Part shown: one piece after another, positions 848-30,722 of the stretch
How the letters are laid out: every line of letters starts with the position of its first letter
How positions within the stretch are numbered: position 1 is the first letter of the stretch
Virus record (IMG/VR): IMGVR_UViG_3300031704_000007
Coordinates: 1 to 31,381 of that record
DNA from: a virus
Reading direction: 5' to 3' (one strand)
DNA: 31,381 nucleotides
Translations under genes and position numbers: made by a program
The notes under the pieces: generated by a model
What the model saw: the letters and a program-made list of their open reading frames with translations, nothing else
What the model was told of the DNA's origin: nothing
The model's database searches: none

Positions 848-1073
848 TGAACGAGTTCTTTCTTGTCCGTCCTCGCGTCCGCTCGGTCGGTCCGCGCATC
901 AGGCGCGGGCGGGCGGTCGCCCTTGCGGCGCTTCGCGCCGGGGCGGCGCAACTCCTGTCAAGCTGGCTCGCCCGTCGATCTGCGCCGGCGAGCAAAGCGA
1001 CGCCGCAAGGCCGACCGGCCGCCGGCCCTGGTGGGCCGCCCGACGCCCCGGACGGGGCGGAGGACAGAAAATC
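848..1073. repeat. Gap holding two back-to-back hairpin repeats (A1 reverse, A2 forward)
   Basis: This gap contains two copies of the window's mosaic repeat in opposite orientation. A1 occupies about 861-940 on the minus strand: reversed it reads hairpin GCGC-GAA-GCGC, CCGCAAGG core, GCGC hairpin, then a GAGCGGACGCGAGGA tail. A2 occupies about 1001-1073 on the plus strand, with a GGCCC-TGGT-GGGCC stem and a CGCCCC-GGAC-GGGGCG stem. A2 ends in GGAGGACAG and an A-rich spacer before the ATG at 1074. A separate stem (966-972 with 987-993) lies between them. An open frame from 844 or 847 to 1077 crosses the gap but is only repeat translated into Arg/Ala/Pro-rich sequence. Confidence 0.8.
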
Positions 1074-5086: not shown

Positions 5087-5511
5087 CCCGCCCGCCTGAC
5101 GCCTTCCCTGTGCCTGCCCACATCCGGTTTCAGCCGGGCGGGGGGAGCTTTGAGTTTGAGCTGGTGCGCAACACGCTGGGCGAGGCGTGGATGCAGTATC
5201 TGGTGGCCGGGCTGTCGGCCATTGATGGCGAACTGCGCGCGCGGGGCATCGATCCCGATGGGCCCATTGTGTTTGTGGGCGAAGCGCAGCGCCTGACCCT
5301 TGAGGCCCGCCACGCGCACGCCCTGAGCCAGAGCCCCACCACAAGCGCCCGTCTACGGGCCGCCTACTGCACCTGGTTCAACACACTCCGCGCCCGCTAT
5401 CGCGGCGAGGAGATCGCCCCGGCAGCGCAGCTGCCGCAAGGGCCACCGCCCGCCCGCGCGATCGCGGAACCGACCGAGCGGACGCGAGGGAGGACAGGTA
5501 AAGATGCCTAA
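5083..5511 (+). CDS. Hypothetical protein whose C-terminus is encoded by a hairpin repeat
   Basis: 142 aa. ATG overlaps the helicase stop (ATGA) and a GGAGG lies just upstream. Residues 1-108 have mixed composition and look like a folded domain (FQPGGGSFEFELVRNTLGEAW, FVGEAQRLTLEARH). From about residue 113 the frame runs into repeat A3 and becomes Pro/Arg-rich (QLPQGPPPARAI, PTERTRGRTGKDA). The repeat has apparently supplied a new C-terminus and also the ribosome-binding site for the next gene, whose ATG at 5504 lies inside this frame. The family is not recognised. Confidence 0.6.
   Translation: MTRPPDAFPVPAHIRFQPGGGSFEFELVRNTLGEAWMQYLVAGLSAIDGELRARGIDPDGPIVFVGEAQRLTLEARHAHALSQSPTTSARLRAAYCTWFNTLRARYRGEEIAPAAQLPQGPPPARAIAEPTERTRGRTGKDA
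5421..5503 (+). repeat. Mosaic hairpin repeat A3, carries the RBS of the methyltransferase gene
   Basis: Order of parts: GCAG-rich first stem (GGCAGCGCAGCTGCC), CCGCAAGG, GGGC/GCCC stem, CGCG-AT-CGCG stem, then CGACCGAGCGGACGCGAGGG and GGAGGACAG ten bases before ATG 5504. It overlaps the 3' end of the preceding gene. Confidence 0.8.
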
Positions 5512-6037: not shown

Positions 6038-6957
6038 GTATTCAGGCACTCGCGGCGGTCATTGAGAGCCAGCTCTATGCAGGGGCGACCTATGGCATCC
6101 TTCTGTCGCTGGCCAACCATGCGGACACGCAGGGCTATGTTTATGTCGGCTATGGCCGCATGGCCGAAGAGGCGCGCTCCGCTGAGCGCCACGTAAAGCG
6201 CGTGATGAAGGCCATCTGCGTGGATGTCATGCGCGATGCGGAGCGCTACCCCGATGAGGCGGCCCATGAAGCGGCGCTGAGCGCTGCGCCGGTGTGGCGT
6301 CTGTCGGAGCAGGGCGGACCGCGCGGCACAAACGAGTATCAGATCAACATGGACCTGTTCAAAGCCGCCCGTGACGCGGTGGAGCAGGCCCGCCGTGACC
6401 GCCGTGCCGGCCGCCCGAAAAAGGGGGTGACATCTGGTGCAGCGCCCCCGGAAATAGGGGTGACATCTGGTGCATTCCGGCCTCTGGAAATGGGGGTGAC
6501 ATTTGAAATGGGGGTGACATCTGGTGCACGGGGGGGTGACATCTGGAGTCACCCCAGGGGTGACATCAGGAGTCACCCGAACCGTCCTTCCGAAGGAACC
6601 GAGTCACGCGCGAGCGAAGGTGCGCTCTGCGGGCGCGACCTCGAAGCGCAGGGTGCGACCCCCGCTGCCTCTGCGCCCGGCTGTGATGCTGATGGCTCGG
6701 CGACGGGGTGTGAGGGCGAGGGCGGTGCGCACCCCGCGGACCGGTGGCGCGAGGCGCGGCGTGCGGCGCGAAGCCGGTTCGGGGATATCGGCTATAGCAG
6801 CGAGATCAGCCGGCTGAGCGCCGAAGGGGCGGTGGTGATCGCCGCCAGCCGGTTCGATGTGGCCGCCATCGCGCGGCGCTATGGGCCGTTTTTCAAGCAG
6901 TACGGGTTTGTAAGCGTCCGGGGCCCCGGCTCCGGCGACGAGGAGGTGCGTCTATGA
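6034..6957 (+). CDS. O-like phage replication initiator with iterons inside the gene
   Basis: 307 aa from the ATG overlapping the methyltransferase stop. Residues 1-70 form a winged-helix domain (ATYGILLSLANHADTQGYVYVGYGRMAEEA, then RHVKRVMKAI), as in the N-terminal origin-binding domain of phage O-type proteins. Residues about 130-180 are repetitive (GVTSGA units, GDIWSHP, GDIRSHP), encoded by six 18-bp iterons. The C-terminus (about 240-307) is a separate small domain, probably the helicase-loader contact. Lambda O has the same plan, with iterons in the middle of its own gene. The stop overlaps the next start (ATGA at 6954). Confidence 0.75.
   Translation: MSIQALAAVIESQLYAGATYGILLSLANHADTQGYVYVGYGRMAEEARSAERHVKRVMKAICVDVMRDAERYPDEAAHEAALSAAPVWRLSEQGGPRGTNEYQINMDLFKAARDAVEQARRDRRAGRPKKGVTSGAAPPEIGVTSGAFRPLEMGVTFEMGVTSGARGGDIWSHPRGDIRSHPNRPSEGTESRASEGALCGRDLEAQGATPAASAPGCDADGSATGCEGEGGAHPADRWREARRAARSRFGDIGYSSEISRLSAEGAVVIAASRFDVAAIARRYGPFFKQYGFVSVRGPGSGDEEVRL
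6424..6580 (+). repeat. Iteron cluster, candidate phage replication origin
   Basis: Six copies of GGGGTGACATCTGGTGCA or variants start at 6424, 6457, 6493 (diverged, ends TTTGAAA), 6511, 6533 and 6557. Intervals are 33, 36, 18, 22 and 24 bases. The last two copies end in GGAGTCACC, so each is a dyad: GGGGTGAC and GTCACCCC flank a short loop at 6533-6555, and a near copy follows at 6557-6579. Their position inside the initiator gene matches the lambda O/ori arrangement. No clear AT-rich unwinding element adjoins the cluster. Confidence 0.7.
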
Positions 6958-7838
6958 GCGCGAAAGACCAGGCGAGCCGTGAGGCGCAAGCGCGGGCAGA
7001 CGAGGCCACGGCGCGGGTGCAGGCCAGGCGCGAAGCCGAGACCCGTGGGCTGGACCCTGAAGTGCACGCGCGCTGGGCCATGGCGCTGGAGCGCATGGAC
7101 GCGGAAGGGGAGAGGGAGGGCGGCGATGTGCAGGCCACTCCGGCGAAGGCCGCGTGTGGGACGGGCCGTGAAGGCTCGGCGGGGGATGGGCAGGCGCTGC
7201 GCGAGGGGAGGCTGGCGGCGGCACAGGCGCGCAAGGCGGGCCGGGAGGCCTCGGCGCAGGACCCTGTGCGCCGGGCCGAGCGGGCCATGGCGCAGGACCG
7301 CATCAAGGCGCTCAAGGAAGTCTCGCGCCAGATGGGGCGGCGAGTGGATACCCTCGAATTTGATCCGCTGAACGCCATGGCGCGCGGCGTGATCACCGAG
7401 GGCAAGCATCTGCGCGCGCTGTCTCCGACGCCTCAGCTGGGCCTTCTCTCGGTGCCGCACCGCAATCGCGGGGCGCTGATCAGCCCGCGCCAGCTCGCGG
7501 CGTTCAGCGTGTTCCATGGCGAGTGGCTGGGCAGTCAGGTGGGCGTGGGTGCCGTGGATCTGGCGCGCATTCGGGTGGATGGCGGCGGCGTGGGTGATGC
7601 CACGTGGCGGCTGGCGCGGGCGGCTGATTCGCTGGCGGCGTTCCGGCGCTTGCGGGCGGCGGTGGGTGATGTCTCGCGGCTGCAGCTGGTGGACCATGTG
7701 GTGCTGTTTGACCAGGGGCTGGAGAGCTTCAACTGCGCAGTGATCGAGCGGGTGAAGGACCGCAAGATGCAAGCGGGGATGCGGCTCTCCATGCTGCTCG
7801 CGGCAGCCGACAGCATGGCGCGTCAACTCTGGGGCTGA
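6954..7838 (+). CDS. Hypothetical protein, possible DUF6456-like late regulator
   Basis: 294 aa. Residues 1-125 are a charged, Ala/Arg/Glu-rich helical region, probably extended or coiled. Residues about 140-294 look globular: NRGALISPRQLAAFSVFHGEW, LRAAVGDVSRLQLVDHVVLF, then GLESFNCAVIERV and a final helix AGMRLSMLLAAADSMARQLWG. This recalls alphaproteobacterial DUF6456 proteins, where a similar helical segment ends in a basic last helix, but the match is from memory and weak. It is the last early gene before the non-coding region that leads into the terminase genes, a place often taken by late-gene activators or antiterminators. Confidence 0.55.
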   Translation: MSAKDQASREAQARADEATARVQARREAETRGLDPEVHARWAMALERMDAEGEREGGDVQATPAKAACGTGREGSAGDGQALREGRLAAAQARKAGREASAQDPVRRAERAMAQDRIKALKEVSRQMGRRVDTLEFDPLNAMARGVITEGKHLRALSPTPQLGLLSVPHRNRGALISPRQLAAFSVFHGEWLGSQVGVGAVDLARIRVDGGGVGDATWRLARAADSLAAFRRLRAAVGDVSRLQLVDHVVLFDQGLESFNCAVIERVKDRKMQAGMRLSMLLAAADSMARQLWG

Positions 7839-13501: not shown

Positions 13502-13510
13502 GCGCTCTCC

Positions 13511-13596
13511 GGCTGGCTCCGCCAGCCGCAAGGCCGACCGGCCGCCCGCGCTATGCGCGGAAGCGCCCAAGCGGACGCGAGAAAGGACAGGACAAA
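13511..13596 (+). repeat. Mosaic hairpin repeat A4, carries the RBS of the head protease gene
   Basis: First stem GGCTGG-CTCCG-CCAGCC, CCGCAAGG core with GGCC/GGCC stem, GCGC-TAT-GCGC stem, GCGGACGCGAGAAAGGACAG tail, then A-rich spacer to ATG 13597. Confidence 0.8.
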
Positions 13597-15240
13597 ATGC
13601 CCAGATCCATGCGCCTGCCGAGCGGGCCGCAGCGCCTTGCTCTGGCTGTTGGCCACGACTCGCTTCTGCTCAGCCCTGATTTTACGCCCCGCGCCCGTCA
13701 TGCCGATGCCGAGTTCGAGCCACACCTCGGCGAACGCCTGGCCGGCCTGTCGCGCGGCGTCGCAGACCGCTGGGCGGCGGCGGTGTCTGGCGAGCCGCAT
13801 GCCGCTGAGAGAGATAGCTGGGCGCCCGAGATTCCCGAATGGGCCGAGTCCGGTGAGCGCACCGCCCACGGCTATACGCTGGTGGAGAATGTCGCCCTGA
13901 TCGAGGTCGAGGGCCTGCTCATGGCACGCGGGTTCCAGGGCTACTGGTCGGGCTGCTACTGGCCCGGCTATCGCGACTATGTCGCCGCGCTCAAAGCCGC
14001 CAATGAAGACGAGCGCGTGGACGCGGTGCTCATGCGCTTTGACACGCCGGGCGGCTATGTCACGGGCTGCGCTGAAGCGGCTCAGGCGATCCGTGCCCTG
14101 CGCGCCGAAAATGGCGGCAAGCCGATCATCGGCCATGCCTCCGAGCTGTGCGCATCGGCAGGCATGAAGTTGGCCGCCCAGTGTGACGCCTTCTATGCCG
14201 GCGACGGCGCGGTGATCGGCAGCGTCGGCGTGCGCATCGGCTTCTTCGATCTCGAAGGGGCGCTCGAGCGATGGGGGGAGCGCTCTCATCTCTACAAATC
14301 CGGGCGCCTGAAGGACATGGGCTCGATGCTGCGCGCGCCCACCGATGAAGAGGCCGGGATCTACCAGGCCGAAGTCGATCATCTCGCCGATCGCTTCTAC
14401 GTCGAGCTGGCCGCTGGCCGGGGCCTGGACCTGAACGCCCTGCGCGAGAGCCGGGGCTGGGAAGCGCGCACCTTTACCGCAGGCGACCCGCCGCCGCCCG
14501 CCGATTTGGACCCGCTCGCCGTGGATCTGATCGACGCGGTGATGACCGAAGAGTCCGCCTTTCAGATCGCGCAGTCCCTTGGCGCGCCCCCATCCCTTTC
14601 CGCTCCTAGCGCCGTGGCCAGCCGCGCGGTGAGACAGCGGGATTCAGACGCGGCTGTATCGAAAGTGGAGACCCCCATGTCTTTGATTGCGAAAGCGGCC
14701 GCGCTGAAGGCGCGCGCCAAAAAGGGCGACGTGAAAGCCCAGGCCGAGCTTGATCGCCTGCTCGCCACGCTCGGCGCCAACGCCGAGTATCAGGATCCCG
14801 ACGCCGAAGACGGCGAAGACGACGCCGAGGGCGAAGGCGAGGACGATGACGCCGACGCCATGGACGACGACGCTGAAGGCGAGGGCGAAGACGACGACGC
14901 CAACGCCGAAGACGGTGACGACGACGAAGCCGGCGCTGAAGATGACGATGAGGATGACGACGCCGAAGCGGTGCTCGCCCACCCTTCGGCCAAGGGCCGC
15001 GAGGCGCTGGCCGGTCAGCTGTCTGTCCAGGTCGCCAGGGGCAAGCTCACCAAAGCTCAAGCCATCGGCATGCTCAAATCCGCGCCCAAGGGCTCCAGCT
15101 TCCGCAACACGGCGGGCGCGAACACCCCGTCCGGCGTGCGCCAGGCCGGGGCTGGATCGGGCAAAGGCAAGGGCAAAACCACCGAGGCTGATGCGCTGCT
15201 GTCCAGGGCGCACAAAAGCCTTGGAACCTTCACCGACTAG
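13597..15240 (+). CDS. S49 head maturation protease fused to scaffold (gpC/Nu3-like)
   Basis: 547 aa. The N-terminal half is a SppA/S49 serine protease: RFDTPGGYVTG (residues 147-157), CASAGMKLA with the probable nucleophile Ser187, GSVGVRIG (208-215), and the probable general base Lys239 in GRLKDMGS. After about residue 350 comes a scaffold-like region: a basic helix (SLIAKAAALKARAKKG), a long Asp/Glu/Ala-rich stretch (about 402-465), then PSAKGREALAGQLSVQVARG and a disordered basic tail. In lambda the protease C contains scaffold Nu3 as an in-frame internal product; the same layout is visible here. It assembles inside the prohead and digests scaffold and itself. Led by repeat A4. Confidence 0.87.
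   Translation: MPRSMRLPSGPQRLALAVGHDSLLLSPDFTPRARHADAEFEPHLGERLAGLSRGVADRWAAAVSGEPHAAERDSWAPEIPEWAESGERTAHGYTLVENVALIEVEGLLMARGFQGYWSGCYWPGYRDYVAALKAANEDERVDAVLMRFDTPGGYVTGCAEAAQAIRALRAENGGKPIIGHASELCASAGMKLAAQCDAFYAGDGAVIGSVGVRIGFFDLEGALERWGERSHLYKSGRLKDMGSMLRAPTDEEAGIYQAEVDHLADRFYVELAAGRGLDLNALRESRGWEARTFTAGDPPPPADLDPLAVDLIDAVMTEESAFQIAQSLGAPPSLSAPSAVASRAVRQRDSDAAVSKVETPMSLIAKAAALKARAKKGDVKAQAELDRLLATLGANAEYQDPDAEDGEDDAEGEGEDDDADAMDDDAEGEGEDDDANAEDGDDDEAGAEDDDEDDDAEAVLAHPSAKGREALAGQLSVQVARGKLTKAQAIGMLKSAPKGSSFRNTAGANTPSGVRQAGAGSGKGKGKTTEADALLSRAHKSLGTFTD
14677..15240 (+). CDS. Predicted internal-start scaffold protein, Nu3-like
   Basis: An in-frame ATG at 14677 (codon 361 of the protease gene) is preceded by GTGGAG six bases upstream. 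It begins exactly where the protease domain ends and the scaffold region starts (MSLIAKAAALKARAKKG). The product would be 187 aa: basic helix, acidic low-complexity region, helical segment and basic tail. Lambda Nu3 arises this way within C. The start is inferred from the Shine-Dalgarno spacing and domain boundary; only N-terminal sequencing of prohead proteins would settle it. Confidence 0.55.
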   Translation: MSLIAKAAALKARAKKGDVKAQAELDRLLATLGANAEYQDPDAEDGEDDAEGEGEDDDADAMDDDAEGEGEDDDANAEDGDDDEAGAEDDDEDDDAEAVLAHPSAKGREALAGQLSVQVARGKLTKAQAIGMLKSAPKGSSFRNTAGANTPSGVRQAGAGSGKGKGKTTEADALLSRAHKSLGTFTD

Positions 15241-17250: not shown

Positions 17251-17294
17251 TGCGCAGCCCCGGCCCGGTGGGCCGGGGCTCGCCGCATGTTTTT
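17251..17294 (+). terminator. Terminator-like hairpin after the major capsid gene
   Basis: Stem AGCCCCGGCC/GGCCGGGGCT (17256-17265 with 17271-17280), extended by TGCG/CGCA (17251-17254 with 17284-17287) across a small internal loop, directly followed by TGTTTTT. This is the best factor-independent terminator in the window. A partial stop here would give more capsid than tail transcript. Confidence 0.6.
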
Positions 17295-17400
17295 CTAGTG
17301 CTTCGGCCCGTCCGGGCCTCGCTTCCTCCCCCGGATCAAGTCCGGGGTCCGGGCGGCCCGGTTTACAATTTGGCGCCCTTGCGGGCGGCTGCGCCGCCCG
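17288..17400 (-). repeat. Mosaic repeat B1 (reverse), one arm of a 97-bp inverted repeat
   Basis: Read on the minus strand: stem CGGGCGGC-GCA-GCCGCCCG, GCAAGGGCGCCAAATTG, then hairpins CCGGGC, CCCCGGA/TCCGGGG and GCCCG-GA-CGGGC, ending in a GAAAAACA tail. Positions 17297-17384 are identical to the complement of 19792-19879 over 88 bases; with one mismatch the match extends to 97. Confidence 0.85.
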
Positions 17401-17412
17401 TCGGATCACCCC

Positions 17413-17494
17413 GGCGCTCTGCGCCGCAAGGCCGACCGGCCGCCCGCGCTGATGCGCGGCCCGACCGAGCGGACGCGAGGAAGGACCAGCAAAG
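17413..17494 (+). repeat. Mosaic hairpin repeat A5, carries the RBS of the FII-like gene
   Basis: Stem GGCGC-TCT-GCGCC, CCGCAAGG core with GGCC/GGCC stem, GCGC-TGAT-GCGC stem, CGACCGAGCGGACGCGAGG tail, AAGGACC, then A-rich spacer to ATG 17495. Confidence 0.8.
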
Positions 17495-17833
17495 ATGTCC
17501 TTTGACTCCCAATTCGAAGCCGCCTTCGCGCCCGCCTGGGGCGCGACCGGCGCCGAGCCCATGACCTATACCGGGCCGGGCGGTTCGCCTGTCGTGACGG
17601 AGGTTCCGGTGACTTACAACGAGGATCGCGAGGGCCTCGATGGCGGTGACGGCTATGGCAAGATGGTGGCGCGCAAGCGCACCGGCTCGGCCTTCCGCAC
17701 CCGCTTTGTCGAGCAGGGCGTGAAGCCGGAGAAGAACGGCACCTTCACCCGCGAATCCGGCGCCATCCTGAAGATCGGCCAGCCCCCCGAAGGCCCCGAC
17801 AGCGCCGGCGAATACCGCTTTGATTTTGGATAG
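17495..17833 (+). CDS. Head-tail joining protein, FII-like
   Basis: 112 aa, close to lambda FII (117 aa). It starts MSFDSQFEAAF, like the 'DFDNLFDAAI' opening of FII proteins. A compact beta-rich domain follows: YTGPGGSPVVTEVPVTYN, a region around SAFRTRFVEQGVKPEKNG, then a final strand TFTRESGAILKIGQPPEG. FII binds gpW/portal and presents the surface for the tail. The call rests on the opening residues, size and gene order (after capsid, before Z/U-like genes). Translation is led by repeat A5. Confidence 0.65.
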   Translation: MSFDSQFEAAFAPAWGATGAEPMTYTGPGGSPVVTEVPVTYNEDREGLDGGDGYGKMVARKRTGSAFRTRFVEQGVKPEKNGTFTRESGAILKIGQPPEGPDSAGEYRFDFG

Positions 17834-17844
17834 GGTCAGGAACC

Positions 17845-17947
17845 GGCGCGAAGCGCCGCAAGGCCGACCGGCCGCCCGCAGCGTCAGCGAGGATCGCTGC
17901 GGCCCGGACGGGCCGCGCGGCGAGGCGGGCGTTAGCCCGGCTGCGCA
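17845..17947 (+). repeat. Mosaic hairpin repeat A6, without a clear Shine-Dalgarno end
   Basis: Stem GGCGC-GAA-GCGCC, CCGCAAGG core with GGCC/GGCC stem, GCAGCG/CGCTGC stem, GGCCC-GGAC-GGGCC stem, then a different last module (17920-17945). Unlike other copies it reaches ATG 17948 with no GGA-rich site. The last module is the inverse of a segment at about 21757-21790. Confidence 0.75.
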
Positions 17948-18661: not shown

Positions 18662-18690
18662 AGCGCTCGCGGGCCACGCTGCAGCTTTAC

Positions 18691-18775
18691 CCGGTGCGAA
18701 GCGCCGCAAGGCCGACCGGCCGCCCGCGCTTGTGCGCGGAGCCGACGGCCCGGACGGGCCGCAGGACAGGAAAAA
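18691..18775 (+). repeat. Mosaic hairpin repeat A7, carries the RBS of the U-like gene
   Basis: Stem GTGCGAAGCGC, CCGCAAGG core with GGCC/GGCC stem, GCGC-TTGT-GCGC stem, GGCCC-GGAC-GGGCC stem, then GCAGGACAGG and A-rich spacer to ATG 18776. Confidence 0.8.
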
Positions 18776-19252
18776 ATGACCAGTACTTACACACAGGTTG
18801 AGGCGGCGCTGTTTGCGCTGCTCGCCACGGCGCTTGCGACCGTGACGGGCGCGCCGGTGCTCGAGCTGGATGAGCCGCGCCTCGCGGATCCCGCCGAGGT
18901 GGATGATGCCGGGGATGTGGAGAACCGCTTTCGCGCCGTACTCATGCCGGGCCGCATCGACCGATCCGAGCAGCAGCTGGTCAACCCGCCGCCCTGGCAG
19001 CTGGTAACGACGTTCCGCGTTGGCCTGCACGGGCTTGGATCAAAGGATGCGGAGCGCCGCGCCCTCGTTCGCGCCATGGCAAGCGCTCTGGCGACCGCCA
19101 TCGACACCGACTTCACCCTTGATGGCGCGGCCAGCTACGCCACCACAGAAAGCCTCGACACCGACACGGCCAAGGAGGCCGGCTTCGCGCCGGAAAACCT
19201 GCTCGACCTGCAGATCAAGGTGGAGTGGGACAGCCCCACATCCGCTGGCTGA
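18776..19252 (+). CDS. Tail terminator protein, gpU-like
   Basis: 158 aa, compared with 131 in lambda U. A helical start (YTQVEAALFALLATALATV) is followed by an acidic loop, a strand-rich core (RFRAVLMPGRI, WQLVTTFRVGLHGLG) and a helix (RRALVRAMASALATAIDTD), ending with LLDLQIKVEWDSPTSAG. This alpha-beta order fits the tail-terminator fold that caps the tail tube and fixes its length. The position between the Z-like and tail tube genes agrees. The residues do not identify the family with certainty, so other tail-completion proteins are possible. Confidence 0.6.
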   Translation: MTSTYTQVEAALFALLATALATVTGAPVLELDEPRLADPAEVDDAGDVENRFRAVLMPGRIDRSEQQLVNPPPWQLVTTFRVGLHGLGSKDAERRALVRAMASALATAIDTDFTLDGAASYATTESLDTDTAKEAGFAPENLLDLQIKVEWDSPTSAG

Positions 19253-19257
19253 TGAAA

Positions 19258-19365
19258 CCGGCGGCGCAGCCGCCGCAAGGGCGATCGCTTGCCCGGACCC
19301 CGTACACAGTCCGGGGAAGGAAGCGAGGCCCGAACGGGCCGAAGCACTAGAAAAAGGAGACTCCC
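19258..19365 (+). repeat. Mosaic hairpin repeat A8, hybrid of types A and B
   Basis: First part is type A (GGCGGC-GCA-GCCGCC stem, CCGCAAGGGCGATCGCTT), second part type B (CCGGACCCCGTACACAGTCCGG, GCCCG-AA-CGGGC, GAAGCACTAGAAAAA), followed by AAGGAG six bases before ATG 19366. Shows that the modules recombine. Confidence 0.8.
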
Positions 19366-19775: not shown

Positions 19776-19888
19776 GGCCCGCTTCGGCGGGCCGCAAGGG
19801 CGCCAAATTGTAAACCGGGCCGCCCGGACCCCGGACTTGATCCGGGGGAGGAAGCGAGGCCCGGACGGGCCGAAGCACTGGAAAAACA
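19776..19888 (+). repeat. Mosaic repeat B2 (forward), other arm of the 97-bp inverted repeat
   Basis: First stem GGCCCGC-TTCG-GCGGGCC, with a C(TTCG)G tetraloop, followed by the 97-base segment 19792-19888, the inverted partner of 17288-17384 (single mismatch at 19880). Repeat A9 follows after six bases. Confidence 0.85.
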
Positions 19889-19894
19889 GCCCAC

Positions 19895-19976
19895 GGCGCG
19901 CAGCGCCGCAAGGGCGACCGCCCGCCGGCCCTGATGGGCCGCAGCGACTGAGCGGACGCGAAGGAGAACCAGAAAA
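19895..19976 (+). repeat. Mosaic hairpin repeat A9, carries the RBS of the tail tube gene
   Basis: Stem GGCGC-GCA-GCGCC, CCGCAAGG core with GGGC/GCCC stem, GGCCC-TGAT-GGGCC stem, GAGCGGACGCG tail, AAGGAG and an A-rich spacer ending in AGAAAA before ATG 19977. Confidence 0.8.
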
Positions 19977-20942
19977 ATGACCCGCAAGCTCGGCCGCGAG
20001 GCCCAAGCCCATCTGCTCGCCCAGGCTGTCACGGGCGTCGCGGCGGCAGGCGATTACAACCCGCTGCTGTATTACAGCCTGACCCCCAACCGGGCGAAGC
20101 CGAAAGAGAGCGATCCCCTCATCGGGCGCGCCCTCCACAACGTGCTGGACGCGCAGGAACCCGCTGACGGGCTGGTGACCGCCAGTCTCGATCTGGTGAC
20201 GCCGCTCTGCTTCAACCATATGGGCCTGCTTCTGCCGCTCCTGTTCAATACCGTCGCGCCCACCGGGGCGGGGCCCTATGTCCACGCCTATACATCGGGG
20301 CAGCGCGAGACCGCCGGTGCGTCCATTGTCTGGAAAGAAGACGATGACTGGGAGCAGGCCAATACCTGGGTGCCCCAGTCCATGGAGCTGGCCTTCGCTC
20401 AGGAGTCCGGGCGCCGTCAGGTCCGCTGGTCCGGCCCGTGCTCCAACATCCTGCCCGTGGCCAGCGACCCCACCGGCACGCCGGCGACCATCGCCGAGTC
20501 CATCATGCCGGCCGGTCCGGGCTGTATCATCCGCAAGGATGGCACGGTCGTGGCGCGGGTGTCTGCCGGCACGGCGCGCTTCACCCGCACGCTGGAACCG
20601 TTCCGTCCGGCGGGTAATGCTGAAAGCGTGGCCACCGAGTTCACGCCCGATGTGGGAAGCCGCTTTGAGGGCGATTTCACCATGCGGGTCGTGGACAACA
20701 CCTTCCGCGATTTCGCCAATGACGGCGGCGTTGATGCGTTCGAGTTTGAATACGCCCTGAGCGCCGGCGCCAAGCTGGTCATCGCCCTGCCTGCAGTGCG
20801 GTTTGAACCCACCAAGCGCGCGGTGAACGGTCAGGGCCTGCGCGATGAGAACTTCCGCTGGATGGCCGAGCAGACGGCGTTGGCGGCGGGCGCCACGCTC
20901 ACCCTTACCAACGCCACCGCCACCTACATAGTGGAGACCTAG
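19977..20942 (+). CDS. Tail tube protein (major tail protein)
   Basis: 321 aa. A segment near residue 25 (AGDYNPLLYYSLTPNRAKPK) and the alternating strands of the central region (VTASLDLVTPLCFNHMGLL; SMELAFAQESGRRQ near residue 122; ATEFTPDVGSRFEGDFTMRV near residue 225) fit tube proteins of the Phage_tube_2 type. The last part, ATLTLTNATATYIVET, is a C-terminal strand pair. It polymerises around the tape measure. Gene order (before G/GT and tape measure) matches lambda V. AAGGAG of repeat A9 gives it a strong start, as expected for a major structural protein. The next ATG follows the TAG directly. Confidence 0.75.
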   Translation: MTRKLGREAQAHLLAQAVTGVAAAGDYNPLLYYSLTPNRAKPKESDPLIGRALHNVLDAQEPADGLVTASLDLVTPLCFNHMGLLLPLLFNTVAPTGAGPYVHAYTSGQRETAGASIVWKEDDDWEQANTWVPQSMELAFAQESGRRQVRWSGPCSNILPVASDPTGTPATIAESIMPAGPGCIIRKDGTVVARVSAGTARFTRTLEPFRPAGNAESVATEFTPDVGSRFEGDFTMRVVDNTFRDFANDGGVDAFEFEYALSAGAKLVIALPAVRFEPTKRAVNGQGLRDENFRWMAEQTALAAGATLTLTNATATYIVET

Positions 20943-21563
20943 ATGCTGCGCCTGAATATCTCCGCCGAGCCGGAGCGGCTGGCGCTGGCGGGCGGGGCGG
21001 CCATCATCATGGACCCGCCCACCACGGCGGCCTTCTATGCCGCCCAGGAGATGGCCCGCGCCCGCCTGCCGGGCCGCGACGACAAGGAGAAGGAGCCCGC
21101 CTACCTCAAGCGGGTAAAGCCGGTCCTCAAGGCCTATGGCGTGGACGCCTTCTATGGCCGCATGCCGCGCGAGACCGCCGAGAGGGCGCTTTTCGTCGCC
21201 ATGCTCTATGGCTGCCTCGCTGAAGTGCTGATCCGCGACTGGGAGGGGATCGGCGATGACACCGGCGCGCCGGTCCCGGTGACAATCCCCAATGTCCAGG
21301 CGGCCATGCGCTCGCCGCTGATCGGGCCGCCCGTGCGCGACCGGATCGAAGCCAGCATCGGGGCGGTGATTCACGAGGGAAACGCATCCGCGCCGCCGTC
21401 GCCCACTGGTGGGGAGGCGGCGCACAAGACTGCAGGAATTGCGCCAGCCTCGGCGAAGCCTGCAGCAAGGGCGGGCGCAGCCCGCACCCCGAAGACGGGC
21501 AGCTCCGCCTCTGCCCGCAAGTCGAACACGCGCCCGAAAGCTTCGAAGGCCAGCAAGTCCTGA
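20943..21563 (+). CDS. Tail assembly chaperone, gpG-like
   Basis: 206 aa, ATG immediately after the tube stop. Residues 1-140 form a helical domain (TTAAFYAAQEMARARLPG, KRVKPVLKAYGVDAFYG, TAERALFVAMLYGCLAEV). After the slippery site at codon 146-147 the zero-frame tail becomes low-complexity and basic (PAARAGAARTPKTGSSASA). In lambda the equivalent protein G and its -1 frameshifted version GT bring the tape measure and tube subunits together and are absent from the finished tail. The gene lies between the tube and tape measure genes, the usual position. Confidence 0.7.
   Translation: MLRLNISAEPERLALAGGAAIIMDPPTTAAFYAAQEMARARLPGRDDKEKEPAYLKRVKPVLKAYGVDAFYGRMPRETAERALFVAMLYGCLAEVLIRDWEGIGDDTGAPVPVTIPNVQAAMRSPLIGPPVRDRIEASIGAVIHEGNASAPPSPTGGEAAHKTAGIAPASAKPAARAGAARTPKTGSSASARKSNTRPKASKASKS
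21377..21383 (+). promoter_or_regulatory. -1 frameshift slippery site G GGA AAC
   Basis: The heptamer GGGAAAC is in the correct phase (G GGA AAC, zero-frame Gly-Asn) for simultaneous -1 slippage; lambda G/GT uses GGGAAAG. The -1 frame stays open from here to TAG 21740-21742. Confidence 0.75.
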
Positions 21564-21742
21564 CGCTGGTCCGCTCGGGCCTGTGCCTGCGCCACGGCCT
21601 CATGGGCGTGGCCGGCCTCGACCACGCCGAAGCCCGCGCCCGCCTCTCCAGCGTGCCCGGCCTGGTCGCCGCCCACCTGCTGGACGAAGCCGAAGCCGGG
21701 CTTCTAAAGGGGCTGGCGGCGCAGCGTGAGGATGGGGATTAG
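21381..21742 (+). CDS. T-like extension of gpGT, reached by -1 frameshift
   Basis: After the slip the frame reads KRIRAAVAHWWGGGAQDC, then RNC, CPQ and later VLTLVRSGLCLRHGLMGVAG and AAHLLDEAEAGLLKGLAAQ, ending at TAG. About 120 residues are added to the first 146 of the G-like protein (fusion about 266 aa). The extension has Cys-Arg-Asn-Cys and two further Cys within 35 residues, a possible small metal site, then a helical hairpin. It lacks an early start codon, so it depends on frameshifting. In lambda, the T domain binds the tube protein and G binds the tape measure. Confidence 0.7.
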
Positions 21743-22020
21743 CGTGGGTGTCTCCATGCGCTCGCGGGCTGACGCCCGCTCCGCCGCGCAGGCCCTCCGG
21801 CCTGCAGCCTTCCGCGCATAAAGCGCGGGCGCGCAGTCGCGCTAGCGGCCCACTGACGCGGGCCGGGCACGGACCATCAAACCCCTCGGCGGCGCAGCCG
21901 CCGCAAGGGCGACCGCCCGCCCGCAGCGAGCCGGACTTGCTCCGGCGCAGTGAGGAAGCAAGCCCGCGGACGCGGGCGCGCAGCCTGAAAAATACTGCAC
22001 GCGAAGGAGGATTGAAACAG
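21743..22020 (+). repeat. Repeat cluster ahead of the tape measure gene (type C module and A10)
   Basis: About 21757-21790 holds a module (GCGGGCTGACGCCCGC stem, CCGCCGCGC) that is the inverse of the end of A6. Further stems follow (CAGGCC/GGCCTG, GCGC pairs). A10 occupies 21886-22020: stem GGCGGC-GCA-GCCGCC, CCGCAAGG core with GGGC/GCCC stem, GCCGGA/TCCGGC stem, CCGCGGACGCGGG, and a tail with AAGGAGG ten bases before ATG 22021. The open frame through the cluster is not a gene. Confidence 0.75.
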
Positions 22021-24237
22021 ATGGCTTCACGCAATGCCGGCTCTGTCGTCATCCGCCTTGATCTGCGCGGGCAGGAAGAGATGAAGCGCCAGCTTGATGA
22101 GCTGGGACCGGCGGGCAAGCGCCTGGGCCGCGATCTTGAGAACGCCATGAAGCCGGTGGGCACTCAGGGCAAGATCGTCAAGGGCGCCATGAACGAAGCT
22201 GGCCAGGCGGTGGAAGGTCTGGCTCGCCAGGCCGGCCCGCTGGGCTCTGTCTTTCTCGGCTTGAACCCGATCCTCACTGGCATTGGCATTGCTGTTGGCG
22301 CGCTGGCGCTGGCGGTGCGCGAGGTGTTCGTGCTTATGGATCGCAGCCGCGAGACGGCCGAGTTCGCCGCTGGGCTGGAGACCGTCTCCCGCGAGGCCGG
22401 GATCGCCACGGACGAGGTGCTGGGATTCCGCACGGCTTTGCAGCTCGCCGATGGCGACGCGGCAGCGGCGGATTCGTCCCTGAAGAAATTCTCCGAGCGG
22501 CTGGGCGAGTTTCGCAATACCGGCCAGGGCGAGGGCAAAGACGCCTTCGCCGTGCTGGGCCTGACCGGCCCGGAGTTTGACCGTCTGCCTGTGGAAGACG
22601 CGCTCGACCGGGTGCTGGAGCAGCTGGCCCGGATCGAGGACCCGTCGCGGCGCCTGTCGCTGGCCGAGATGCTGGGCCTGGGCGATGCGGCCCCGCTGCT
22701 ACAGCGGGCCGGCGATGATATCGCGCGGATCCGCACCGAGGCTGACGCGATCAATGCGGCTTTCACCGAAGGCACGCTGGCTGAGTTTGCGGCTGCGGCC
22801 GAGACGATCCGCCTGGCTCAGGCCCGCGCCGAGCGGGCGCGCCAGCTGCAAAGCCTGGCTACGCTGGACGCCGAAGTGGCCCGTCAGGAAGCCATTGCCG
22901 GGTTTGAAAACCGGAAGGCTGCGCTGCTGGCGGAGCGAATTCCAGTGGAGGAGCGCTCCCTTGAGCTTTTAGGCCTGCAGCGCATTGAGCTGGAAACCCA
23001 GCTTGAGCGTCTGGAGCGCGCCTGGGAGGGCGACCGCACCGCCGCCGCCTTCCTGCCGGTCGTTCGCCGTGAGCTGGAGACAATCACGGGCTGGTATCAG
23101 CGCCGCGCCGAAGAAGCCGAGCGTGCCGCCGAGGCCGAAGAGCGCATGGCGGCCCTGACCGCCCGTGCCGAGCGCGATCTCGCCAACAGCTTTGTGGCCG
23201 CCCCCGCCGCCGACCCCGCCACCAACCTCACCCTGGAACGCCGCCGTGAGCTTGAAGCCCTGGTGGAGGCCCAGCTGCGCAGCCTCATGACGCCGCTTGA
23301 ACGTGTGGCGGTGCTGGAAGCCGACCTGCGCCTCGCGCGTGCGGCCGGGTTCGAGATCACCGAAGCCCAGATCGAACAGATCCTCACCGAAGCCCGCGCC
23401 CGTGAGGGTCTGGTCTCCGGGCTGGGGGATGAGCTGGCGGCCCGCCAGGCCATTCTGGACGCCGGCGCGGTCGTGCCGCGCCTGCGCCCGGCCAAGCGCG
23501 GCTCAGGCGTCCTGGACGGGCTGGAAGATCCCGCTGCGGCCAAGTTCAAGGTGCAGCAGGATCAGGCCGCCGAGGCCGGGCAGGTGCTGGAGGCGGCCAT
23601 CGAGCGCGATCGCGCGGCGCTGGCGTCGGGCGTGGCGCGCTTTGCGGCGGACGGCTTCCGCGCCGGGATGACGCGCGGCCTGGATGGTGCGCTTGGGACC
23701 ATGCGCGATCGCCTCTCGGACATGCTGATGGATGTGTTCTTCAATTCCATGCGCAACGGCATGATGAATGCGCTGAACGGCCTGAGTGTCGGCTCGGGCG
23801 GGCTGGGCGGCCTCGTGCGCGGGGCCGCTGGCCTGTTCGGTCTCAGCATTGGCGGCGGCGCGGCGGGTGGGGCTGCAGGGTTCGTGCCTGGACCCGGCGT
23901 CAAGACGCCCGGCCTTGATGGCGGCGGTGATCTGCTCATTGGCGGGCGCGGCATGGACCGCAGCCTCCTGTCCATTGACGGCTCCCCCGTGGCCCGCGTC
24001 GGCGCGGAAGAGCGCGTGCGCGTGGTGCCGCGCGGCGGTGAGGGGGCGCGGCCTGCCGTTCACCAGCATTTCCACATGCATGCGGAGGGGGCGGTGATGA
24101 CGTCTGAACTGATGGCCAGCCTGCAGGCGCAAGCCAATGACACCGCGGCTGTCGCCGTGGCCGAATCTGTCGATATCGCCGACGCGCGGGCCGCCAGGCG
24201 CGCTAAGCGCTCGCGCTATGCTCTGGGGCGTGGCTGA
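22021..24237 (+). CDS. Tail tape measure protein
   Basis: 738 aa from the ATG ten bases after AAGGAGG; the longer frame from 21748 is translated repeat. After a short N-terminal strand the protein is mainly long helices rich in Ala, Glu and Arg. A hydrophobic segment near residues 77-105 (VFLGLNPILTGIGIAVGALA) probably helps membrane passage. Coiled-coil candidates lie around 255-400. The end holds Gly-rich GGGLGGLVRG-type sequence and RSLLSIDGSPVARVGAEERV, common near the C-termini of phage tail proteins. At roughly 0.15 nm per residue the tail would be about 110 nm. Fits lambda H by position after GT. Confidence 0.82.
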   Translation: MASRNAGSVVIRLDLRGQEEMKRQLDELGPAGKRLGRDLENAMKPVGTQGKIVKGAMNEAGQAVEGLARQAGPLGSVFLGLNPILTGIGIAVGALALAVREVFVLMDRSRETAEFAAGLETVSREAGIATDEVLGFRTALQLADGDAAAADSSLKKFSERLGEFRNTGQGEGKDAFAVLGLTGPEFDRLPVEDALDRVLEQLARIEDPSRRLSLAEMLGLGDAAPLLQRAGDDIARIRTEADAINAAFTEGTLAEFAAAAETIRLAQARAERARQLQSLATLDAEVARQEAIAGFENRKAALLAERIPVEERSLELLGLQRIELETQLERLERAWEGDRTAAAFLPVVRRELETITGWYQRRAEEAERAAEAEERMAALTARAERDLANSFVAAPAADPATNLTLERRRELEALVEAQLRSLMTPLERVAVLEADLRLARAAGFEITEAQIEQILTEARAREGLVSGLGDELAARQAILDAGAVVPRLRPAKRGSGVLDGLEDPAAAKFKVQQDQAAEAGQVLEAAIERDRAALASGVARFAADGFRAGMTRGLDGALGTMRDRLSDMLMDVFFNSMRNGMMNALNGLSVGSGGLGGLVRGAAGLFGLSIGGGAAGGAAGFVPGPGVKTPGLDGGGDLLIGGRGMDRSLLSIDGSPVARVGAEERVRVVPRGGEGARPAVHQHFHMHAEGAVMTSELMASLQAQANDTAAVAVAESVDIADARAARRAKRSRYALGRG

Positions 24238-25438: not shown

Positions 25439-25900
25439 ATGGCAAAACCGACCCTTCCCCCGCTCGTCGCGCGCGAGCGGGTTGTCCGCGCCTGCGTGGC
25501 GCGCTTTCGCGAAAAAAAGCGCCAGTATGGCAGCGTGGATTGCGTCAAGAGCACGGTCTTTGTCCTGCGCAAGGCGGGCGTAAAAATCCCCTTCCTGAAG
25601 GGCAAGACCTATGGCTCGCGCGCGACGGCGAAGGCGATCCTTGAGCAGACTGGCTGCGCCACGCTGGTGGACTGCATGGACGCGCTGGGCCTCACGCGCA
25701 TCGCGCCGCTCGCCACATTGCCGGGCGATATCATCGCGCTGCCCGTGCCCGAGGGTGACCCGTTTGGCGCCAGCCTTCTGATCGTTCACACGGCGGGCGC
25801 CCATCGCGTCTTCGGCTTTGATCCGCAAGACAGCCGGTTCCGCGTTGGCGTGCCGGAGCTGGCCGCCTGCCTCGCCGCCTGGAGAGTGCCCCATGGCTGA
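25439..25900 (+). CDS. NlpC/P60-like tail hydrolase (DUF6950-like)
   Basis: 153 aa. GSVDCVKSTVFVLRKAG places the probable nucleophile Cys35 at the start of a helix, as in NlpC/P60 proteins (FDCSG). PLATLPGDIIALPV (residues about 90-103) is the 'pGDLv.f' strand, and VHTAGAHRVFGF supplies His117 or His122. The overall pattern fits DUF6950-type proteins in phage tail modules. The domain would trim peptidoglycan during tail entry, and corresponds to the C-terminal half of lambda K. The start of the J-like gene overlaps the end of this one (25893-25900). Confidence 0.7.
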   Translation: MAKPTLPPLVARERVVRACVARFREKKRQYGSVDCVKSTVFVLRKAGVKIPFLKGKTYGSRATAKAILEQTGCATLVDCMDALGLTRIAPLATLPGDIIALPVPEGDPFGASLLIVHTAGAHRVFGFDPQDSRFRVGVPELAACLAAWRVPHG

Positions 25901-28900
25901 TCCGATCAGTGCAGTTTTTGCCGCCATTGGAAGCGCAATCGCGAGCGCCACGGCGGCCACTGCCAGCGGGCTGATTGCGCTTGGCGTCGGCGCCGGCGCG
26001 GCGAAGGCGATTGCCAGCTTCGTCATCCCGACCCTGATCAGCGCGGCGCTGTCCATTGGCGCCGCGGCTCTGCTCGCCCCGGATGTAAACCGGGAGGGCA
26101 GTCCCACCGACTGGCGGCCTGACCCGAATGCCGGGATTCCCGTGGTGCTGGGCCGTGCGGCGGTTGCCGGCCGCCTCATCCACATGGATGAGCACGGGCC
26201 GGACAATCGCTATGTAACAGCTGTGAACCTGTTGTCCGCTGGCCCGATCGATGCGCTCGAGAGCTTTCGCGCCGACCGGGTGCCGGTGAGTTTCAGCGGG
26301 ACGGGCGCCACCAGTCCGGCCGAGTTCGCCGACAGGATGTGGCTCTCTACTGCGCTGGGTTCACGGACCCAGACCACGGCCCTGTCCATTGGAAGCCTGC
26401 CCCATGGCGAGCCAAGCTTTGCCGGCTGGGACGCAAACTCCATCCTGCCGGGCCTCGCCCACACCCTCTGGACGCTTTATCACGACAGCAAGAGCTATCC
26501 GGGTGGAATGCCGGTGCCGCAGCACATTGTGCGCGGGGCCAAAATCTATGATCCGCGCAAGGACTCCACCTATCCCGGCGGCGCGGGCGCACACCGCCTT
26601 GATGACCCGGAGACGTGGGAATTCAGCAAGAATCCCGGCCTCCACGCTATCGGCTGGGCGCTGGCCCACACCGTCATCGATCCCAACACCGGCAAGGTGT
26701 TCCGCCTTGGCATCGGGGCCAGCCCGTCCGGGCTGAACTGGCCCGCCTTTGTTGAGCTGGCCAATGTCTGCGACGCCAATGGCTGGGACGTCTCGGCGGT
26801 CCCCACGTCCAGGGACAACCCCCACCAGGTCCTCAAGGCGATCCTGCAGGCCGGCGGCGCGCGCTATGACAGCCTGGCGGGCAAGATCAGCTGCGTCGCG
26901 CGCACCCCGCGCACCAGCGTCGTCACGGTGTCGGCGGCGGATACCGCCGGCCCGTTCGAGATCGAGGTCAATGCCGACCGGCTGACAAGGCGCAACACGA
27001 TCACCCCGCGCTGCGTGCAGGAAGACCACAACTGGCAGATGACGCCGCAGGATGTGGTGAGCGTCACCGAATACGTCACCGCCGATGGCGGCGCGCTCGC
27101 CCAGCCCCTGGACTTTCCCTATGTGGCCGTGGCGCCGGGCTCGGCGAACGTGAAGCAGCCCCGCCAGCTGGCCGCCTATGCCATGCTGGACAGCCGCGAA
27201 AGCCTTGTCGGCACGGCGCCCTTCCTGCCTCACATGGCCCAGCTGCAGCCGGGCGATGTGTTCACCGTGGACGACCCCGGCCTCCTTCTGGCCGGCGTGG
27301 AGCTGCTGGTTGTGAAGCGCGACATCGATGCGCCGAACAATATCGTGCAGATCACCTTTATCAGCGAGAGCGCGGGCAAGCATGATTTTGCCCTGGGCCG
27401 GACCAACACGCCGCCCACGCCGCCGGGCCTGACGGCGCCGGACATCCGCGCCGTGCCTGCGCCGTCTGCGGCGATCTTTTCCGCAACGCCGGGTGCGGGC
27501 CGCCAGCCCTCCATCACGCTCACGGCGTCCAATATTGATGCGGCGCATCGCGGCTATCTGGTGGAGCTGCGCCGCACCACCGACCTGGCCGGCGACCCGA
27601 TCAGCTATCCCGACAACGATACAGGCTGGGAGGTCTATGGCGAATACGACATCGCCACCGAGCAGGTCATCATTACCGGCCTTGAGCCCGCCACCGGCTA
27701 CCAGATCGCGATCCGCTATGTAAGCGAATACCGGATCCTCGGTGAGCGCCGCATCCTGACGACGATCACCACCGGCGCCATGGTCGCCAGCGACAGCGCT
27801 GCGGTGGGCGACCTGATCGATAGCGAAGAGTTTGTCGCAGAGGGGATTTTGCGCCTGTCAAAGGCGCTGGCGGAGCTTCGCAACTGGCTTGATGACGAAG
27901 TTTATCTCGAAGGCCAGCCCGTCACCGCCAAGGTGATCGAAGAGCGCGAAGAGCGCGAGACGGAAAGCGCGGCGGTTCTTGATGCGGCTGAGGCTGGTGA
28001 TGCAGCCGTCGCTGCGCGCGTGCGCCGTCTGTCGGCCCCGTCCGAAAACCTGATTGCGGACACCTGGAACAGGGCTGGGGGGTCTCAGGACTGGCGCGAT
28101 CAGACCGGCGCCCCGGCGCAGATCGTGCCCAAGACAGGCTTCGCGGCGCTGCGCGCCTACCACACCGCGACGGGGGCAGGGCAGGGTCTCCAGCTTGTCC
28201 ATCTGCCGCGCAAGCGTGTTGAGGCGGGCGAGGTCTATGAGGTCTCCGCCAGGCTCACGGTCTCCGGCACAGCCTCTGCGCCCAAGCTGAAGCTGGCCAT
28301 CTACGCCACGCAGGATGGCGCCACGCCGTCAGCCACCCTGGCTGTGGAGTTGGACAGCGGTGTGCGCGACGGCAGCGCCAGCGTAACCATTCCGGCTGGC
28401 GGCGGCTGGGCTCGCTTTGAGGCTGAAAGTATCAGCACAGGCGCGGGCGCCGGGGCGTTCGAGCTTGAGGGTTCGCTCTGGCGTCTGGCGGATACCGGGC
28501 AGTCAGCCATCAGCGCGGCGCCCAGCAAGGAGGATCCGAGCCTCGCCTTCATCAAGCAGGTGCAGGCGGTCACATCGACCATTGCCGTGCAGAGCGACCG
28601 GCTGCGCGTGGCTAATACACACGCCCTTGCAGAGATCCGCAACATCGTCGTGGCGCAGCTGGGCGACCAGTCCGCGCTCGTCTCTCAGGTGGAAACGCTT
28701 GAGGCCAGCGTTGGCACGCTCAGCGCGACGCTGACCACGCTGCAGGAGACCGTTGCCGGCGTGGTCGAGGAAGCGGTTCTGATCGAGCGGCTTCAGGTCG
28801 GCACGGTGCTTAACCGCATCCGCGATCCGCTCTTTGACCGCGGCTCCGAGGACTTCATCACCGACTCTGCTCCGCCCGTGCTGGTGAAGGAAGGCGGTAC

Positions 28901-30722
28901 GCGCCATCTGCGCATCGAGCGCACGGCGGGCGCCGCAGGCGATTCCGGGTTTATCGAGCACATGCCTGCGATCCGGGTCTATGAAGGCCAGAGCCTTGAA
29001 TGGTCGCCGCGCGCCCGGCTTGGCGGCGTGGCGTCATCGGCAAGCCTTCGCCTGCGCTTCACTGATCTGGACGGGAATGCCGTCTCGACGCTCACCGGCG
29101 CAGCCATTACCGGCGCAGGCTGGCAAACCAGTCCGGCTTTCTTGACGGCACCAGAGGACGGCTACGTCTATCCGCGCATCGTGGCGGTGGCGTCCGGCGC
29201 CGGGGCGCTCACACTGGATATGGACGAACCGCAACTGCTCGGCGCGCTGGCCGGTCAGACGGTACGCTCGAATTTCGAGCGCGCTCGCTCCCCAGTGGCG
29301 GCAGAGCTTCTGGACAGCCGGATTGCATCGGCCCGCGAGGTCGCGCGACAGGAGCGGCTACAGCTGAACGCCGGTAACGCCCAGGCGCGGATCACCGAAG
29401 AAACCAGCGTGCGCCAGACCGAAACGTCGGCGCTGGCGCTAAAGGACACCCAGCTTGAGGCGTCTATCGAAAGCGTCTCCGACGATCTGGCGACCAACTA
29501 CGCCACAGCGGCGGCGATCAGCGCGACCTATTTGACGCAAGCCGAGACTGACAGCTCCATCGCGGCGTTCAATCTCGGCCTTAACGCGACGTTTTCCAGC
29601 CTCGCTTTGGACGTGGACGGGATCGAAACGGATCTGGCCACCAACTATCTGACGACGGCCCAGGCCAATCTCGCCTTTACGACGCTGGCTGAAGTCGACG
29701 CGGCGATCTCGGCGTTCAATCTCGGCCTTAACGCGACGTTTTCCAGCCTCGCTTTGGACGTGGCCGGGATCGAAACGGATCTGGCCACCAACTATCTGAC
29801 GACGGCCCAGGCCAATCTCGCCTTTACGACGCTGGCTGAAGTCGACGCGGCGATCTCGGCCTTTGATCTTTCGCTGAACTCGACCTTTGGCACCCTGTCC
29901 TCATCGGTTGATCTGAACGCAGCGGCCATCACCGACCTTGAGGGTGCGGTGGCGGGTTTCTCCATCGTGGTGGCGGCAGACGGGTCAACGCCCGCGATCG
30001 TGGAGCTGACCTCCGGTGTGGGCGGCTCTGCTGTCGCGCTCAAGGCGGACAGGATTTATCTGGGCGACGTCCAGATCTTCACCGAGGACGGAGCGAGCAT
30101 CCTGCTGGCCGATAACGTTGTGGCCAGCAACGTCGCGGCGGACACCATTACAGCCCGAGAAATCGTCTCAGCCTCTCTCGGCGTCCGGAAAAAGGTCGAG
30201 GGATCTGATCACCTCATTATTCCGTATGGCACCTACGCCACGGGCGCAGACGCTCATGCCGCCTATGACAGCATAGATTTCAAATCCCCCAACCAGGTCG
30301 CGAACCCTGGCGACGAAATAGAGCTTGAGTGGCAATGCTACATCGAAGCGACAGCCCGGATATTCAATCACCACTACTTTCAAGTGAGAATTTATCGGGA
30401 GGTCAATAATAGCGCAGTGGCTACGGGCGCCGGAGTCGTTGAACTACAGCAGGAATATATCAGTCATTACGGCGTTTCCGGCAATGCGTCGGACGCCCGC
30501 ATGCCCGTTCCCTACCTCTCCCAGATCAGGAGCACAGACACGGTTCCCGCAGGCGTCTCGGCTGGCTCGGACGTGCGCTATCACGTCCAGGTCCTGCCAG
30601 TAAACATGAACGGACCCTTCTCAGCGTTTGAGGGGTGGAACGACGACTATGGCCAACGGTCGCTGATCGCACAAAGATACCGCTTTTCCGCCCTGCTTTT
30701 CTCAGACGCAATCGGCACATAG
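25893..30722 (+). CDS. J-like tail tip and host-specificity protein
   Basis: 1609 aa, compared with 1132 for lambda J. The start at 25893 follows GGAGAG and overlaps the previous gene. Residues 10-65 form a hydrophobic Gly/Ala-zipper (SGLIALGVGAGAAKAIASFV), as in gpI-type proteins often fused to the hub. The central part (about 80-500) is the hub region. PPTPPGLTAPDI leads into a fibronectin III domain (about 505-630, GLEPATGYQIAIRYVSEYRI). Helical or coiled segments near 885-975 (LVSQVETLEASVGTLSATL) precede carbohydrate-binding-like beta domains. A 49-aa tandem repeat (1225-1322) lies near the end. The last 180 residues differ in base composition and are probably the receptor-binding tip. 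Confidence 0.82.
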   Translation: MADPISAVFAAIGSAIASATAATASGLIALGVGAGAAKAIASFVIPTLISAALSIGAAALLAPDVNREGSPTDWRPDPNAGIPVVLGRAAVAGRLIHMDEHGPDNRYVTAVNLLSAGPIDALESFRADRVPVSFSGTGATSPAEFADRMWLSTALGSRTQTTALSIGSLPHGEPSFAGWDANSILPGLAHTLWTLYHDSKSYPGGMPVPQHIVRGAKIYDPRKDSTYPGGAGAHRLDDPETWEFSKNPGLHAIGWALAHTVIDPNTGKVFRLGIGASPSGLNWPAFVELANVCDANGWDVSAVPTSRDNPHQVLKAILQAGGARYDSLAGKISCVARTPRTSVVTVSAADTAGPFEIEVNADRLTRRNTITPRCVQEDHNWQMTPQDVVSVTEYVTADGGALAQPLDFPYVAVAPGSANVKQPRQLAAYAMLDSRESLVGTAPFLPHMAQLQPGDVFTVDDPGLLLAGVELLVVKRDIDAPNNIVQITFISESAGKHDFALGRTNTPPTPPGLTAPDIRAVPAPSAAIFSATPGAGRQPSITLTASNIDAAHRGYLVELRRTTDLAGDPISYPDNDTGWEVYGEYDIATEQVIITGLEPATGYQIAIRYVSEYRILGERRILTTITTGAMVASDSAAVGDLIDSEEFVAEGILRLSKALAELRNWLDDEVYLEGQPVTAKVIEEREERETESAAVLDAAEAGDAAVAARVRRLSAPSENLIADTWNRAGGSQDWRDQTGAPAQIVPKTGFAALRAYHTATGAGQGLQLVHLPRKRVEAGEVYEVSARLTVSGTASAPKLKLAIYATQDGATPSATLAVELDSGVRDGSASVTIPAGGGWARFEAESISTGAGAGAFELEGSLWRLADTGQSAISAAPSKEDPSLAFIKQVQAVTSTIAVQSDRLRVANTHALAEIRNIVVAQLGDQSALVSQVETLEASVGTLSATLTTLQETVAGVVEEAVLIERLQVGTVLNRIRDPLFDRGSEDFITDSAPPVLVKEGGTRHLRIERTAGAAGDSGFIEHMPAIRVYEGQSLEWSPRARLGGVASSASLRLRFTDLDGNAVSTLTGAAITGAGWQTSPAFLTAPEDGYVYPRIVAVASGAGALTLDMDEPQLLGALAGQTVRSNFERARSPVAAELLDSRIASAREVARQERLQLNAGNAQARITEETSVRQTETSALALKDTQLEASIESVSDDLATNYATAAAISATYLTQAETDSSIAAFNLGLNATFSSLALDVDGIETDLATNYLTTAQANLAFTTLAEVDAAISAFNLGLNATFSSLALDVAGIETDLATNYLTTAQANLAFTTLAEVDAAISAFDLSLNSTFGTLSSSVDLNAAAITDLEGAVAGFSIVVAADGSTPAIVELTSGVGGSAVALKADRIYLGDVQIFTEDGASILLADNVVASNVAADTITAREIVSASLGVRKKVEGSDHLIIPYGTYATGADAHAAYDSIDFKSPNQVANPGDEIELEWQCYIEATARIFNHHYFQVRIYREVNNSAVATGAGVVELQQEYISHYGVSGNASDARMPVPYLSQIRSTDTVPAGVSAGSDVRYHVQVLPVNMNGPFSAFEGWNDDYGQRSLIAQRYRFSALLFSDAIGT
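29565..29858 (+). repeat. Two 147-bp tandem repeats within the J-like gene
   Basis: 29565-29711 and 29712-29858 are near-identical; I noticed one base change (Asp to Ala: GVDG-type versus GVAG-type, at GTGGACGGG and GTGGCCGGG). A third, diverged part follows. The unit is 49 codons, so the frame is kept; it encodes NLGLNATFSSLALD, ETDLATNYLTTAQANLAF and TLAEVDAAIS, a helical shaft-like segment. Confidence 0.9.

Follow-up and report, generated by a model that had tools for sequence, protein, structure and literature searches.

A conserved slippery heptamer predicts a tail assembly chaperone gene of the lambda G/GT type in a tailed phage

Gene arrangement at the locus

The stretch of DNA analyzed here in full (the window) is an IMG/VR phage record of 31,381 bases. 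Within it, a G-like gene sits between the tail tube gene and the tape-measure gene (Table 1), which is the location of lambda-type G/GT genes. The start of the tape-measure gene was placed from the sequence at the ATG at 22021, and its N-terminus (MASRNAGSVVIRLDLRGQEE) resembles that of the corresponding protein (MARNQKAGSVVIRLDLRGQEE) in L008, one of the relatives described below.

The G-like gene contains a single in-phase heptamer of the type X_XXY_YYZ. This heptamer, GGGAAAC, is read GAG GGA AAC in the frame of the open reading frame (ORF), the first 147 amino acids of which are common to the unshifted product and the predicted fusion. Past the heptamer the 0-frame encodes a low-complexity tail rich in A, K, S, T and P that ends at a TGA (21561–21563). 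The −1 frame has no stop codons from 21260 to a TAG at 21740–21742 and extends 119 codons beyond the heptamer, so that slippage would yield a product of 147 + 119 = 266 amino acids. Because the earliest ATG, GTG or TTG of the −1 frame lies at 21602, 3′ of the cysteine motif, gene finders would miss the extension. A previous sequence-only reading had proposed a heptamer in phase at 21377, a −1 frame open for 119 codons to the TAG at 21740, a fusion of about 266 amino acids, a 0-frame turning to low complexity and an extension lacking a nearby start and therefore overlooked by gene finding; each of these points, with all coordinates, agreed with our own inspection.

Table 1 Features of the G/GT-like locus and repeats in the window
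Feature	Position	Strand	Evidence or remark
Tail tube protein gene	19977..20942	+	Directly 5′ of the G-like ORF; Pfam Phage_tube_2, E 1.2e-16
G-like ORF, 206 aa, unshifted product	20943..21563	+	Open reading frame
Slippery heptamer G_GGA_AAC	21377..21383	+	Sequence; counterpart in all examined relatives
T-like −1 extension, 119 codons + TAG	21383..21742	+	Open frame, purifying selection, homologous in all loci
Spacer, 6 nt	21384..21389	+	Fold, alignment
0-frame low-complexity tail + stop	21384..21563	+	Sequence
Stem-loop, probable frameshift stimulator	21390..21423	+	MFE, shuffles, covariation
Four-cysteine motif of the extension	21431..21514	+	Cys codons 21431, 21440, 21461, 21512
Tape-measure protein gene	22021..24237	+	ATG after AAGGAGG; phrog_8125, E 1.9e-8 on longer ORF
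GC-rich repeat copies	5412-5508, 13509-13604, 17404-17500, 18690-18783, 19890-19982
Further GC-rich repeat copies	856-945 (minus), 1001-1077, 17843-17916
Second repeat	17288-17401, 19257-19355, 19792-19888

Between the stop of the predicted fusion and the tape-measure start lies a gap of 278 bp (21743–22020) with repeat sequence. In L008 the tape-measure start was placed within the end of the GT-like gene, with no gap between them. In another relative, L005, the region after the GT-like gene (6790–7262 of that contig) carries a dispersed repeat followed by sequence in which no tape-measure start like that of the window was seen up to the contig end.

Repeats are found elsewhere in the window as well. 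A GC-rich element of 74–97 bp, judged by eye to be capable of forming a hairpin, occupies many intergenic gaps. In five of the copies, the last bases comprise an AGGA-like ribosome site together with the start codon of the following gene. Similar copies occur in L005, and the element has no Rfam match. In a second repeat family, the copies at 17288–17384 and 19792–19888 are 99% identical in inverted orientation. A tandem-like repeat at 29559–29896 (191 bp, 92% identical, offset by 147 bp) lies within a 1,634-aa ORF (25818–30722) toward the end of the tail genes.

Chance expectation from the window

In DNA this rich in GC, where every direction offers long open frames, a slippery heptamer might arise by chance. 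The window lists 129 ORFs of at least 80 amino acids, many of them spurious, and its 18 genes (22,123 nt) hold three canonical in-phase heptamers. As a null model, the G protein was recoded synonymously using the codon usage of the window. Any canonical in-phase heptamer appeared in 14% of the recodings, 12% left the −1 frame open across the overlap, and 1.6% combined a late heptamer with an open −1 frame. As such a combination arises in 1.6% of synonymous recodings, the window by itself is suggestive of a frameshift but not decisive. At the level of sequence comparison, it is the relatives that decide the question of the frameshift site.

Conservation of the site and of the −1 frame

A second contig, 99.9% identical to the window, has the same arrangement, which says little by itself. 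More informative comparisons come from L005 (IMGVR_UViG_3300035034_003285), whose tail tube protein is 87% identical to that of the window. Here the identical heptamer is in phase, the 0-frame stop is at the same position, the −1 frame is open, and the extension shares 74% amino-acid identity. DNA identity between the two is 87% in the two-frame overlap, compared with 80% in the upstream G part and 78% beyond the 0-frame stop; the higher value in the overlap is as expected, since two frames are constrained there.

More distant relatives were gathered by searches with the extension, using patterns that did not include the heptamer, and yielded some 50 loci. Every locus examined has an in-phase slippery heptamer where the homologous −1 frame begins. 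All 48 distinct sites, including the window and GenBank phages, keep it at the same place: GGGAAAC in 43 cases, AAAAAAC in two, AAAAAAA in two and GGGAAAG in one. The slippery pattern thus persists in relatives although the letters differ. Elsewhere in the same ORFs, GGA accounts for 54 of 618 glycine codons. Among the GenBank entries, Rhodobacter phages have a slippery heptamer in the corresponding position, along with a homologous −1 domain.

In most relatives the 0-frame stop follows 3 nt past the heptamer and the tail is absent, whereas in the others it follows after 48–177 nt. The window is at the upper end of this range (177 nt), which explains its low-complexity 0-frame tail. Wherever the 0-frame stop is located, the −1 frame is open in all relatives. 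Stop codons in the −1 frame of relatives had been named beforehand as the observation that would speak against a frameshift; we looked for them and found the frame open in L005 and in about 50 loci. The proposed check of heptamer conservation likewise turned out in favor of the site, both in the identity with L005 and in the 48 of 48 slippery sites. A lambda-type G/GT gene should show just this preservation of both the site and the −1 frame among its relatives.

These comparisons also bear on the idea that the change of frame is a sequencing or assembly error within one continuous gene. A single-base indel in one genome would look alike, but the frame change is present in the near-identical second contig and recurs in all the diverged relatives, where a slippery heptamer occupies the corresponding position. 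The relatives refute this explanation, to which we assign a negligible probability.

Selection on the −1 frame

Twelve pairwise comparisons among relatives gave dN/dS values of 0.02 to 0.26 for the −1 frame, while the same bases in the same pairs gave 0.67–6.5 when read in frame 0 and 0.97–24 in frame +1. By this sequence measure, the −1 frame in the relatives evolves as a protein under purifying selection. In the pair of window and L005, the overlap gave dN 0.108 and dS 0.291; in the T part beyond the 0-frame stop dN was about equal to dS, showing no clear constraint in this pair.

One pair of relatives differed between the two halves. L008 and L009 share 95% identity across the T region, but over the 100 codons 5′ of the heptamer they approach saturation (dN 1.36), whereas L008 and L010 are close in both segments alike. 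The G part may have been exchanged; alternatively, an indel may have displaced the ungapped comparison.

A stem-loop downstream of the heptamer

A hairpin begins 6 nt past the heptamer and consists of an outer 8-bp stem (GCGCCGCC/GGCGGCGC) and an inner stem. Its minimum free energy (MFE) is −26.5 kcal/mol (z −2.83), which one in 200 shuffled sequences equaled. When 37 sequences were aligned without gaps, pairing in the same register was found in 78.8% of cells and changes on both sides at nine of the 12 stem pairs. The covariation score was 0.250, compared with at most 0.147 for slid and at most 0.127 for shuffled controls; these counts are inflated by relatedness, and the stretch also encodes a conserved protein. 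Not every member fits the covariation test, as L011 apparently has its downstream stem in another register. Rfam gave no match anywhere in the window. We regard the hairpin as a probable frameshift stimulator.

Taken together, the conserved site, the selection seen in the −1 frame and the covarying stem refute a chance heptamer, which we rate as no more credible than a sequencing error.

The T half and its four cysteines

Four cysteines at residues 19, 22, 29 and 46 of the extension are present in all 41 aligned extensions. Of these, only the fourth had been included in the search pattern. In the T part of the Rhodobacter phage RcKemmy, four cysteines occupy the corresponding region. The arrangement resembles a metal site, and metal binding is possible.

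The position of the cysteines is relevant to whether the −1 ORF is instead a gene apart, translated from a start codon of its own, perhaps an unusual one, with no fusion made. In the window, the ATG at 21602 could begin a −1 frame product of 46 amino acids. The conserved part and all four cysteines lie upstream of it, however, and from the preceding stop at 21257 up to 21602 there is no ATG, GTG or TTG. Most relatives also lack a start near the site, their conserved part starts at the heptamer, and the RcKemmy homolog was deposited as a joined gene. We consider a separate gene very improbable, though slightly less so than an error or chance, and favor the frameshift fusion.

In profile searches, RcKemmy T matched DUF7697 (2.9e-16) and phrog_11212 (4.4e-16), and the T half of the window matched phrog_36135 (0.0029). 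These three families of unknown function each cover a portion of the extension and probably correspond to segments of T domains; for DUF7697 the link to the window is indirect, through RcKemmy. The predicted structure of T (pLDDT 87.5) gave only noise and no clear match against the PDB in Foldseek; against BFVD, the best three matches were "tape measure chaperones" with E about 0.5, which is at most suggestive.

We tentatively propose that the T half represents a distinct Cys4 domain that binds metal and recruits the tail tube, a reading to which we give somewhat less than an even chance. In the literature searched we found no description of a Cys4-type T domain, and titles and abstracts on zinc or cysteine in tail assembly chaperones held nothing on point. 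If the proposal is true, DUF7697, phrog_11212 and phrog_36135 would gain a function as pieces of a frameshift product.

Identity of the G half

The tail assembly chaperone family PHROG 313 gave a weak profile match to the window G (0.013–0.035) and far better ones in relatives (best 1.1e-15; 5.1e-15 in L030; 4.9e-8 in RcKemmy). For the AlphaFold model of G (pLDDT 85.2), the top two solved structures were YqbN (3KLU, Z 5.2) and the HK97 chaperone (2OB9, Z 4.7), modest values of a size that, according to the structure tool, can be uninformative. Neither Pfam nor NCBIfam matched G or T of the window, and a PDB sequence search returned no credible match for either half. Searching GenBank phages by tblastn with the window G, the −1 extension and the tail tube found nothing, and scans of genome contigs found no relatives. 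Gene order, the PHROG 313 matches of the relatives, the structure comparison and the GenBank annotation support classing the gene with the lambda-like G/GT tail assembly chaperones.

Proposed expression and role

On the basis of the elements seen in the sequence, how well they are conserved, the protein-coding selection in the −1 frame and the order of the genes, we are highly confident that the locus is a tailed-phage G/GT gene for tail assembly chaperones, in which a minority −1 slip would generate a GT-like fusion. The majority of ribosomes would translate the ORF to its 0-frame stop, giving the G-like chaperone, and a minority would slip back one base at G_GGA_AAC and produce the 266-aa fusion, probably aided by the stem-loop 6 nt downstream. 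By analogy with lambda, the G part would coat the tape-measure protein, the T part would recruit tail-tube subunits, and both G and GT would depart before the tail is completed. We infer the occurrence of slippage, its rate and the division of labor between G and GT.

The sequence-only reading had described a canonical −1 programmed frameshift giving a hidden GT protein. The heptamers and the homologous −1 domain of the relatives support the predicted frameshift. "Hidden" is a fair word as far as this contig goes, but in relatives the arrangement was already known and annotated. The comparison confirms a predicted product that gene callers would miss, here and in dozens of related uncultivated phages, and connects protein families whose function is unknown with the T half of such a frameshifted chaperone. 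The picture of tail assembly is unchanged by it.

Comparison with known systems

The slippery site of phage lambda is G_GGA_AAG, whereas the heptamer here is G_GGA_AAC. Both systems share −1 slippage, predicted in our case, near the 3′ end of the gene to give a short chaperone and a longer fusion, and the placement of the gene between those for the tail tube and the tape measure. The window differs further from lambda in that no sequence match to a lambda-type Pfam family was found for it, its T part carries four cysteines and a long 0-frame tail follows the site. The lambda chaperones gpG and gpGT are reviewed in PMC5009743 (citing Levin 1993, Xu 2004, 2013, 2014). With HK97 2OB9 and YqbN 3KLU, the G model shares about 10% identity at low Z, a resemblance at the level of the fold only.

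Among the closest described counterparts is RcKemmy (MW677517; PMC8601537), which has GGGAAAC at the same place and the same gene order. Both halves are homologous by hhalign (probability 99.3 for T and 98.7 for G), at about 30% identity and with a shorter 0-frame tail in RcKemmy. Its genes 15 and 16 are already deposited in GenBank as a short and a two-piece joined "tail assembly chaperone". A frameshifted chaperone of the lambda G/GT type is thus a well-known trick, already annotated in related phages.
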